A stretch of DNA of 64,000 nt from Nitrospirota bacterium. GTDB lineage: Bacteria; Nitrospinota_A; UBA7883. Positions 31,674 through 50,931 of the stretch are shown piece after piece. The stretch lies in assembly GCA_024275315.1 (NCBI GenBank), contig JAJRZK010000017.1:1-64000 (forward strand), in the 5' to 3' direction. The notes under the pieces were generated by a model. It ran no database searches and was not told where the DNA came from. It saw only the letters and a list, made by a program, of their open reading frames with translations. The position numbers and the translations under genes are program-made. Within the stretch, counting starts at the first letter, position 1. The number at the start of each line of letters is the position of its first letter.

Positions 31674-32867
31674 ATGAAATTAGCCGATCGATTATCCAAA
31701 ATCAAGCCATCCCAAACCATGGAAATCACCGCAAAGGCCAAGGCCTTGAAGGCCGAGGGAATCGACATAGTCGGTTTCGGCGCCGGAGAGCCTGATTTTG
31801 ACACGCCGGATTTTGTCAAGGATGCGGCAAAAAAGGCGCTTGACGAGGGCAAGACAAAATATACGGACGCACCGGGGCTCCCGGAGCTTCGCGACACTCT
31901 GGTGGAGTATTACAGGCGGACGGAAAATCTGGAATACAGCCGCAAGGAAGCCATTTTTTCCATGGGAGGAAAGCATTCGCTATACAACATTTTCCAGGCT
32001 CTTTTATCTGATGGCGACCAGGTGATTATTCCATCTCCATACTGGGTGTCATACCCCGACCAGGTCCTGCTCGCCGGAGGAACACCGGTAATTTTGAAAA
32101 CCAGGGAAGAAGATGGATTCCGGTTTAAGCCGGAGGCGATAGAAAAGCTGATCACTTCCGACACAAAGGCTATAGTGGTGAATTCTCCCAGCAACCCTTC
32201 GGGGGCGGTGTACGACAACGCCACCCTGGCCGGCATTTGTGAAGTGGCTGTTAAGAGAAAAATTTTCGTGATCTGGGACGAGGTGTACAAGGATATATAT
32301 TATGGATCCGGCAGGCTCCGCTCCCTGCCCCGCTATAATTCCGAAGTAAAACCTTACACTCTTATTTGCGGCGGATTATCCAAGAATTTTTCCATGACCG
32401 GTTGGCGAATCGGGTGGACCTTGGGTGATGAAGCCGTGGTTAAGGCCATGAGCATGATACAGGGCCAATCAACGTCGAACCCTGTTTCGTTCGCTCAATA
32501 TGGGGCCATGGCCGCTTTGAAGAGGGGCCCCACACATATTGACGGGTGGCTGACACAGTTTCGGGCTCGAAAAGACGCGTTGCTTGAAGCGTTCAAGCGA
32601 ATCGATGGCATGAGCTGTGTGGAGCCTGAGGGAGCGTTTTATGTCTTCCCGAACATATCCGGCTGGTACGGTAAAAGCTGGGAGGGAAAGAAGCTGGAAA
32701 ACTGTTATGACGTAACGAAGTTTCTGCTGGAAAAGGCTCGTGTGGCGGTGGTTCCCGGTGACCCGTTCGGGCATCCTGATAACATCAGGATATCATACGC
32801 CCTCGGAATGGACGAGCTGGTTAAGGGGATAAAGCGGATCGACGTTGCGGTCAGAGAGCTGCAATAA
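31674..32867 (+). CDS. class I pyridoxal-phosphate aminotransferase (aspartate type)
   Basis: This 397-residue enzyme is of the aspartate aminotransferase Ib kind. It has FGAGEPDFDTP near the N-terminus and the substrate/PLP contacts NSPSNPSGAVY. The Schiff-base Lys lies in GGLSKNFSMTGWRIGW, and the substrate-carboxylate Arg lies near the C-terminus in NIRISYAL. Such enzymes interconvert aspartate and oxaloacetate and may serve prephenate transamination. The narrow specificity cannot be read. The peroxiredoxin gene follows after 20 nt in the same orientation. Confidence 0.92.
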   Translation: MKLADRLSKIKPSQTMEITAKAKALKAEGIDIVGFGAGEPDFDTPDFVKDAAKKALDEGKTKYTDAPGLPELRDTLVEYYRRTENLEYSRKEAIFSMGGKHSLYNIFQALLSDGDQVIIPSPYWVSYPDQVLLAGGTPVILKTREEDGFRFKPEAIEKLITSDTKAIVVNSPSNPSGAVYDNATLAGICEVAVKRKIFVIWDEVYKDIYYGSGRLRSLPRYNSEVKPYTLICGGLSKNFSMTGWRIGWTLGDEAVVKAMSMIQGQSTSNPVSFAQYGAMAALKRGPTHIDGWLTQFRARKDALLEAFKRIDGMSCVEPEGAFYVFPNISGWYGKSWEGKKLENCYDVTKFLLEKARVAVVPGDPFGHPDNIRISYALGMDELVKGIKRIDVAVRELQ

Positions 32868-32887
32868 GAAATTTCAGGAGGTTGGAG

Positions 32888-33340
32888 ATGATAAAAGAAG
32901 GTAACAAAGCGCCAGCGTTTGCACTCCTGGACCAGGATGGGGCAAAGAGGACTCTTAAGGAATTTGGCGGCAGAAAAGTTATCCTGTTTTTCTATCCAAA
33001 AGCCAACACCAGCGGGTGAACGACCGAGGCTACCGAGTTTCGGTCCGCCATAAAAGAATTCAGCAAACATAATGCGGTGATAGTGGGTGTCAGTCGCGAC
33101 AAGCCGGAAACCCAGAAAAAATGGGCCGAAAAACTCGATATCGAGTTTCCACTGCTTTCCGACCCCGAAGAGGCCGTGCATTTAAAATACGGAGCCTGGG
33201 GCGAGAAAAACATGTACGGCAAAAAAGTAACGGGCCCGGTCCGGTCCACAATAATAATAGACGAAAACGGCAAGGTAGCCAGGATATATAGAAATGTGAA
33301 AGCCGAAGGCCATGCGGCCAAGGTTTTAGCAAACCTTTAA
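32888..33340 (+). CDS. Bcp/PrxQ-type peroxiredoxin with in-frame TGA (probable selenocysteine)
   Basis: This 150-residue thiol-peroxidase-like protein reduces peroxides. The reading frame from ATG 32888 (AGGAGG upstream) to the stop at 33340 is open except for TGA at 33017-33019, codon 44. The context is FFYPKANTSG-[TGA]-TTEATEF, which aligns with the Bcp active site P-G-C-T-T-E; the TGA replaces the peroxidatic Cys. The frame continues with conserved Bcp features (VGVSRDKPETQKKW, FPLLSDPE, RSTIIIDENG). The protein contains no Cys at all, so no resolving Cys exists. A bSECIS-like hairpin follows the TGA. A nonsense mutation is the alternative, made unlikely by position and the intact downstream frame. 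Confidence 0.88.
33028..33049 (+). promoter_or_regulatory. bSECIS-like hairpin after the TGA codon
   Basis: Downstream of the TGA the RNA can fold GGC-(bulged U)-ACCGA-GUU-UCGGU-CC-GCC. This gives a 5-bp upper stem, a GUU loop 18-20 nt after the UGA, and a U bulge below. Bacterial SECIS elements bound by SelB have a GU-containing apical loop and a bulged U at similar distance. A competing stem, GACCGA (33022-33027) with TCGGTC (33040-33045), is also possible. Confidence 0.65.
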
Positions 33341-36050: not shown

Positions 36051-36515
36051 ATGAGCCTGATTACCGCCTCGAGTATAAAATATGATCTTCTCGCCGCATA
36101 CCGGGTTGTAGGTTATTATATTTACGATTGCATGGACAAGGATGTGGCCGATATAAGGGACCTGCTGATAGATGACATCACGCGGGTTCCGCGGTATGCG
36201 ATTATCGAAATCGGCGGGATGATGTCGATCAAGGGGAAAAAATTGCTGATCCCCTGGGGCGCCCTGGAAAAAGGGAGCATGTCACGAATGGACATGAAAT
36301 GGCCATTAGAGCAGATAATCGGCGCTCCGGCCCCGTTTGTCGCAGAAAAGCCCAGCCGGGCCGAGGAAGAGAGTATCCACAGTTACTTCGGTGTGGAGCC
36401 ATATTGGCTTTATGAAAAAAATGTGACAGACGGAAAAACCGAAACTGTGACAAAACCACTGTTGGACGGTAAGCAAATCGAAAATCTGGTATTGGACAAG
36501 GATGACAAGCAGTAG
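36051..36515 (+). CDS. PRC-barrel domain protein
   Basis: This 154-residue protein begins with a PRC-barrel: LLAAYRVVGYYIYDCMDKDVADIRDLLIDD, then YAIIEIGGMMSIKGKKLLIPW. The C-terminal half (EEESIHSYFGVEPYW...) resembles the second part of photosynthetic-reaction-centre H-like and stress PRC proteins, but without the transmembrane helix. Its function is unknown; PRC barrels bind RNA-processing or redox partners in other settings. The last 14 nt overlap the start of the VKOR-DsbA gene, so the two are made together. Confidence 0.85.
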   Translation: MSLITASSIKYDLLAAYRVVGYYIYDCMDKDVADIRDLLIDDITRVPRYAIIEIGGMMSIKGKKLLIPWGALEKGSMSRMDMKWPLEQIIGAPAPFVAEKPSRAEEESIHSYFGVEPYWLYEKNVTDGKTETVTKPLLDGKQIENLVLDKDDKQ

Positions 36516-37518
36516 CGCTTCCCCGGGCAAAGCATTGTCGACAGCCATCTTCGCGGTTGCGGGATTCGGAGTTGTATTGACAATCGTAACGGAGCTCAGC
36601 CACCACTTTCCCATTATCATGCAATTATGTGGTGGGGAAACCAGCGGATGCGCGGATGTGGCTCTGACCTCGTACTCGCGGATGTTCGGGGTGTCGGTCG
36701 CCTATTGGGGGTTGCTGAGTTATGTGGTTTTTATTTTCCTGATGATCTACAAACCCTCTTTGGCCCTGCCTCTCGCGGCGGCCCTGGTGGGGGCGGAGTT
36801 TTATTTTCTTTGGGTGATGTCGTCTGTGATAAAAATATATTGCACGCTTTGCCTCATCCAGTTTTGCACTGTGATGGTCCTGTTTCCGTTGACTGCCTTT
36901 TGGGCGTGGCGTAAAGGCGATTATTTCCTTCCTGGCAGGCTTTGGTCCACTCCCGTTATAGCGTTGCTGGTTTTTTCTGCGCTGGTGATTCCCGCCCGAT
37001 CCCGGATCGAGGCTACACCGCTGGGCACAGAGGGGCTCGTCACCTATGCCGGCAAACGGGACTCGCACATAAAGGTGGAGCTTTTCTCCGATTACCAGTG
37101 TGGACATTGCCGTCATATGGAGCCCGAGATAGACAAGCTGATCGAGAACCATCCTGATATATTGCTGATCTTCCGCGATGTAATTCTGCCTTCACACAAG
37201 ATTTCCCCGGTCGCCGCTTCGTACGCCAACGCCATTGCCTTCACGAAGGGTCCCGAGGAATTCGTAAAAATCAGGACGGAAATGTACAAAAACCAGGACA
37301 AGCTTTATGACTATCTAAAGGACCATCTGGACAAGGTGGAGTTCACCGATGAGCTGAAAAAGAAACTCCGGGCCAAGGTCAAGGCGGATATGGCAAGAGC
37401 GAAATCCCTGGGAATTTACCAAACCCCATCCATGGTAATTTACAGGGATAACAAAATCGTGCAGAAAATTTCCGGCTATAGAAAATATGAAAAATTCTCC
37501 CGATTCCTGAAGCCTTGA
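36502..37518 (+). CDS. VKOR-DsbA fusion, disulfide-bond formation protein
   Basis: This 338-residue protein fuses a VKOR membrane domain (1-155) to a DsbA-like thioredoxin domain (about 185-338). VKOR shows the loop cysteines C43 and C50 (LCGGETSGC) and the quinone-reactive CTLC (114-117). The Trx domain has FSDYQCGHC (C200/C203) and the cis-Pro in YQTPSMV. Such fusions oxidise periplasmic thiols and pass electrons to quinone, replacing DsbB plus DsbA. The organism makes menaquinone (mqn genes at 41.5 kb), a fitting acceptor. It overlaps the PRC gene upstream and uvrD downstream (4 nt). Confidence 0.93.
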   Translation: MTSSSASPGKALSTAIFAVAGFGVVLTIVTELSHHFPIIMQLCGGETSGCADVALTSYSRMFGVSVAYWGLLSYVVFIFLMIYKPSLALPLAAALVGAEFYFLWVMSSVIKIYCTLCLIQFCTVMVLFPLTAFWAWRKGDYFLPGRLWSTPVIALLVFSALVIPARSRIEATPLGTEGLVTYAGKRDSHIKVELFSDYQCGHCRHMEPEIDKLIENHPDILLIFRDVILPSHKISPVAASYANAIAFTKGPEEFVKIRTEMYKNQDKLYDYLKDHLDKVEFTDELKKKLRAKVKADMARAKSLGIYQTPSMVIYRDNKIVQKISGYRKYEKFSRFLKP

Positions 37519-50346: not shown

Positions 50347-50931
50347 TTACTTTACTTTGGCAAAATATTCCTGTGATTCGGTCGGGCTGGGCTTCATGGT
50401 GTCTGCCCCCGGGGTCCATCCGGCCGGGCATACCTCACCGGTTTCGTCCACACTCTGAATGGCGCTTAGCACCCTTAGCACCTCATCCACGTTTCGGCCA
50501 ATACCAAGATCGTGAACCAGCTTATAGCGGATATTTCCTTCCGGGCCTATGATATATAAACCACGCAACGTGATGCCGCTTTCCAGCAGAACGTCGTAAT
50601 CCTGCCCGATTTTTTTCGTCATGTCCGCCAGCAGGGGGAATTTGATGTCTCCAAGTCCGCCTTTGTTCCGTGGAGTTTCCTTCCACGCCAGGTGGGAGAA
50701 CTGGCTATCGACAGAGCATCCCACTATTTCAGCGCCAAGCTTTGTAAAATCTTCTACCCTGTCTGAAAAAGCGGTGATTTCTGTAGGGCAAACAAATGTA
50801 AAATCAAGAGGATAAAAGAAAAGCACCAGCCATTTGCCTTTGTAATCAGAGAGGCTTACTTCCTTAAACTCCTTGTCTACGACGGCGGTCGCTGAAAAAT
50901 CAGGCGCAGCTGATTGAACCTGTGCGGACAT
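50347..50931 (-). CDS. 2-Cys peroxiredoxin (AhpC/Prx1 type)
   Basis: This 194-residue thiol peroxidase reduces H2O2 and organic peroxides. The peroxidatic Cys is in [14 protein letters not shown] near residue 50 and the resolving Cys in [11 protein letters not shown] near residue 169. In contrast to the Bcp-type protein at 32.9 kb, its catalytic residue is an ordinary Cys and both cysteines are kept. It is monocistronic with a strong terminator. No ahpF adjoins. Confidence 0.95.

Follow-up and report, generated by a model that had tools for sequence, protein, structure and literature searches.

A peroxiredoxin from a Nitrospinota-like lineage that very probably reads an internal UGA as selenocysteine at its catalytic position

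The locus

The window, the entire 64,000-nucleotide stretch of DNA analysed here, carries a forward-strand gene whose product resembles Bcp/PrxQ peroxiredoxins once TGA is translated as selenocysteine (Sec, U) (Table 1). The frame spans 150 codons, just one of them TGA, and specifies no Cys, bearing out two claims of the preliminary description. By base composition alone, the 106 open codons that follow the TGA have a chance probability of about 0.005. The list of open reading frames under translation table 11 holds only a C-terminal piece of 87 aa with a GTG start (33077-33340), in keeping with the expectation that standard gene callers would split or truncate the gene. Because a code-11 reading either ends at residue 43 or keeps the C-terminal half only, this peroxide-defence enzyme is easily overlooked across a whole order. 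The peroxiredoxin very probably reads its internal UGA as Sec at the catalytic position, as judged from the sequence comparisons below.

Table 1. Features of the Sec-Bcp locus, with selD from elsewhere in the same genome
Feature	Position	Strand	Remarks
Class I/II aminotransferase, directly upstream of Sec-Bcp	31674..32867	+	Same neighbour in G004, G007, G008
Shine-Dalgarno-like AGGAGG	32876..32881	+	6 nt before ATG
Probable Sec-containing Bcp/PrxQ peroxiredoxin gene	32888..33340	+	150 aa, then TAA
In-frame TGA, codon 44, peroxidatic position	33017..33019	+	PxxxTxxU motif: P37, T41, U44
Putative bacterial SECIS hairpin, GGCTACCGA-GTT-TCGGTCCGCC	33028..33049	+	GUU loop 33037-33039, 17 nt after UGA
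Thr49 codon, CP+5 resolving-Cys position of classical Bcp, non-Cys here	33032..33034	+	Alignment of relatives and homologues
Ala80 codon, helix-3 resolving-Cys position (Cys84 of Xanthomonas PrxQ), non-Cys here	33125..33127	+	Alignment
selD of the same genome	L008:1501-2454 (G000:C19:57095-58048)		In-frame TGA at Sec-like site SGGUGAKL

An IF-1 gene faces the Sec-Bcp gene, an arrangement also seen in two of the three relatives that share the upstream aminotransferase. Elsewhere in the window, a typical 2-Cys peroxiredoxin (FVCPTE, VCPAGW) is encoded at 50347-50931 (-), which gives the genome a conventional Cys peroxiredoxin in addition to the Sec form. A further gene at 36502-37518 (+) combines VKOR and DsbA/thioredoxin-like domains in a single chain.

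Conservation of the TGA codon and reading frame

All eight Sec-type Bcp genes of the order (the present genome together with G001 and G004-G009) carry TGA at exactly the same codon, and the position is Cys in other homologues. The seven relatives are 59-68% identical to the window protein over the whole frame, on both sides of the TGA. Differences at codon positions 1/2/3 run at 0.25/0.23/0.59 downstream of the TGA versus 0.24/0.20/0.60 upstream, a protein-like, amino-acid-preserving pattern before and after the codon. The downstream frame is thus intact and conserved, as originally proposed.

These data bear directly on the idea that the TGA is a plain stop, left either by decay of a peroxiredoxin gene or by an assembly error turning TGC or TGT into TGA. 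Bcp enzymes usually rely on Cys and, as a matter of sequence logic, one base change from TGC to TGA would be enough, yet the same TGA and an open downstream frame persist in seven relatives down to 59% identity, with selection on the protein sequence about equal on either side. Conservation of the TGA in independently assembled genomes refutes both versions, pseudogene and assembly error alike, and makes a plain stop highly improbable; the relatives keep the TGA with the frame open behind it, the opposite of the decayed downstream frame that the preliminary description had named as evidence against Sec.

Selenocysteine machinery and its distribution

The host genome (2.90 Mb, 100% complete) encodes selA, selB and selD together with a tRNA-Sec gene (selC) scoring 77.5 bits with anticodon TCA (UCA), so the search of the whole genome suggested earlier recovers all four components, whose absence would have spoken against Sec decoding. 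The selD gene is likely a selenoprotein gene in its own right, judging by its in-frame TGA.

In the phylum, surveyed in 24 genomes, Sec-type Bcp genes track selA and selB. Every Sec-Bcp genome (8/8) has selA and/or selB; three relatives, 81-90% complete, yielded only one of the two. Neither gene was found in G010 (73% complete), the sole genome of the order with a Cys-type Bcp, and the sister family f6 lacks both in each of its 11 genomes.

A second alternative, that the UGA is read as another amino acid or that UGA is generally recoded in the organism, draws on the fact that sequence analysis leaves the residue inserted at UGA 44 to be deduced. This alternative is very hard to credit against a complete Sec system, tRNA-Sec included, in the same genome, a TGA placed where other homologues have Cys, and the shared distribution of Sec-type genes and selA/selB; general UGA recoding is rejected on the same three grounds.

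A SECIS-like hairpin downstream of the UGA

In all eight Sec-Bcp genes of the order, a putative bacterial SECIS (bSECIS) hairpin follows the UGA; its loop is invariably GUU, at a distance of 17 nt. Across the eight genes, 89% of the cells of the hairpin alignment pair and three pairs are changed on both sides; shifting the register lowers pairing to 17-47%. The bSECIS model of PMC13188914 describes a loop of 3-9 nt with G in the first two positions, a distance of 16-37 nt from the UGA and a minimum free energy of at most -7.5. The window gene agrees with this model in its GUU loop, its spacing of 17 nt and its energy (between -8.1 and -9.6 kcal/mol for different choices of end points), while three relatives keep the hairpin and fall short of the energy limit.

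Folding energy is weak evidence for a SECIS element here. Compared with synonymous-codon shuffles, the hairpin has only a modest stability advantage (fraction 0.03-0.17 for individual genes of the order), and a loose SECIS filter is passed by 28 of 31 Sec genes versus 35 of 105 Cys genes among the homologues. Since this filter separates Sec from Cys genes poorly, the case for a SECIS rests on conservation and covariation. The GUU loop recurs in the Acidobacteria Sec-Bcp genes L073 and L075. Both Acidobacteria genomes also contain another match, a distant one interrupted by an in-frame TGA (L127, G062:C86:158274-158654; L128, G063:C199:22109-22492), possibly a further selenoprotein.

Fold and active site

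The TGA=U translation matches the Pfam AhpC-TSA domain (PF00578) at 133.7 bits and falls just short of the NF006960 cut-off (139.9 bits against 140). By sequence, the nearest family appears to be the thioredoxin-dependent thiol peroxidases Bcp/PrxQ (COG1225), to which the protein can be assigned by its AhpC-TSA domain, PxxxTxxC/U motif and distal Arg; its closest sequences among structures are likewise of Bcp/PrxQ type. The predicted structure points to the PrxQ fold as well: the AlphaFold model has a pLDDT of 96.5, and its ten best PDB matches are all Bcp/PrxQ-type peroxiredoxins with TM scores (query) of 0.91-0.97.

P37, T41, position 44 and R119 are conserved among homologues, and T41, residue 44 and R119 are invariant. 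The peroxidatic position named in the preliminary description therefore stands; its wording of the motif as P-G-C-T-T-E does not, as the protein reads S-G-U-T-T-E with Ser42 in place of the usual Pro. With Thr49 at CP+5, Ala80 in helix 3 and no Cys in the protein, the enzyme falls outside the atypical 2-Cys Bcp group. Loss of both known resolving-Cys positions is the less ordinary feature of this protein.

Proposed catalytic cycle

As a whole, the observations are in all likelihood best explained by a Sec-decoded Bcp/PrxQ enzyme acting as a 1-Sec peroxidase with an external thiol. We infer Sec insertion, peroxidase activity and the identity of the reductant. UGA codon 44 would be decoded as Sec by SelB and tRNA-Sec, guided by the hairpin beginning 8 nt downstream of that codon. 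Seated in the usual peroxiredoxin pocket with Thr41 and Arg119, the selenol of residue 44 would reduce a hydroperoxide and pass to a selenenic acid. An external thiol would then resolve the selenenic acid to a mixed selenenyl-sulfide, whose reduction would complete a 1-Sec cycle like that of glutathione peroxidase (GPx), with thioredoxin or glutaredoxin as the thiol source. Candidate reductants in the genome are a thioredoxin with the motif WCAPC and a glutaredoxin-like protein with CPDC.

With the CP+5 and helix-3 positions vacant and Cys missing elsewhere too, the resolving thiol must be supplied from outside the polypeptide. The two vacant positions lend support to the 1-Sec mechanism with an external thiol put forward at the outset, and the reductant may be either of the two candidates.

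A third alternative accepts Sec decoding and competes with the mechanistic part of this explanation only: the selenoprotein might be resolved by a dedicated partner or by a second Sec-Prx subunit through a diselenide, or might serve outside peroxide reduction, for example in redox sensing. Its appeal lies in the lack of any Cys for an intramolecular bond and of a redox partner encoded immediately beside the Sec-Bcp gene. The catalytic P/T/R pattern is nonetheless intact, and there is precedent in GPx, whose Sec is proposed to have made a resolving Cys unnecessary (PMC8614756). This alternative is unlikely, though it fares better than the two that deny Sec, and the 1-Sec peroxidase with an external thiol is preferred.

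Cys-free Sec forms among homologues

A survey of 136 distinct homologues, chosen for their similarity to the window protein and hence biased towards forms like it, contains 31 Sec forms and 105 Cys forms. The CP+5 Cys is missing in 14 of the 31 Sec forms, and all 14 are wholly Cys-free; a single Cys is found in only 7 of the 105 Cys forms. The Sec forms of the order make up one supported clade (98). On the tree, Anaeromyxobacter-type forms that lack Cys occupy as many as three positions (L016/L129/L134/L135, L141 and L155). These several positions indicate that the Cys-free state probably arose more than once. A possible association between Sec and loss of the resolving Cys counts two independent pairs on well-supported branches of the tree and four when all branches are taken, too few to establish it statistically.

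It is about an even chance that gain of Sec frees PrxQ of its resolving Cys, and that the enzyme thereby turned into a Cys-free, GPx-like 1-Sec peroxidase in no fewer than two phyla, those of the Nitrospinota-type and Anaeromyxobacter-type lineages, with as many as three origins possible in the second. Sec forms with and without the resolving Cys offer a natural series for testing how dispensable the resolving thiol is.

Among the Sec-type Bcp genes of Myxococcota lies a small nested group of Cys-type genes (L132, L136 and L140, from G106, G108 and G107), which suggests reversion from Sec to Cys.

Comparison with known peroxiredoxins and selenoproteins

Sec-containing peroxiredoxins of COG1225 (Bcp) with the motif PxxxTxxU are a published family, listed among prokaryotic selenoproteins in the table of PMC9312934 and described in passages of PMC13188914 and PMC1088965. 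The premise that Sec-containing Bcp-like peroxiredoxins are established therefore holds, and Sec by itself lowers the novelty of the window gene. Sec-Prx is the second most abundant selenoprotein family in Sargasso Sea data (43 genes). Three Sec peroxiredoxins were listed for A. dehalogenans in 2006 (PMC1794560). The window gene shares with the published family its COG and Pfam assignment, Sec at the peroxidatic position, the TxxU motif and a downstream SECIS; its protein differs in Ser42 and in having no Cys, and Nitrospinota go unmentioned in the available passages on the published family. Within the literature searched, Nitrospinota selenoproteins did not come up; no paper names both Nitrospinota and selenocysteine, and three name Nitrospinae and mention selenocysteine once each. 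The lineage of this Sec-Bcp is Nitrospinota-like rather than deltaproteobacterial, and the gene would add a Nitrospinota-type lineage to the users of Sec.

The Sec-Prx of Anaeromyxobacter (L016, L129, L134 and L135) are likewise Cys-free Sec Bcp proteins (SGUTQEASDF) and are 51-52% identical to the window protein. Their hairpin is a different one, with a CGGGAC or CGUGAC loop at 21 nt where the window gene has GUU at 17 nt. In the phylum of Anaeromyxobacter, the CP+5 Cys is retained by most of the other Sec members. PrxQ of Xanthomonas campestris and other Cys-type Bcp enzymes (PDB 5iiz, 9a4d) are alike in fold (TM 0.92-0.97) and active-site position but have Cys in place of Sec, and Cys84 of the Xanthomonas enzyme has its counterpart in Ala80.

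Within the thioredoxin fold, GPx is a different family from Bcp/PrxQ. By analogy, Sec glutathione peroxidases of the GPx4 type would be a functional parallel, with a Sec peroxidatic residue, no resolving Cys and an external thiol. If Sec did free PrxQ of its resolving Cys, the Cys-free Bcp forms would have converged on what has been proposed for animal GPx, repeating it in a separate family.
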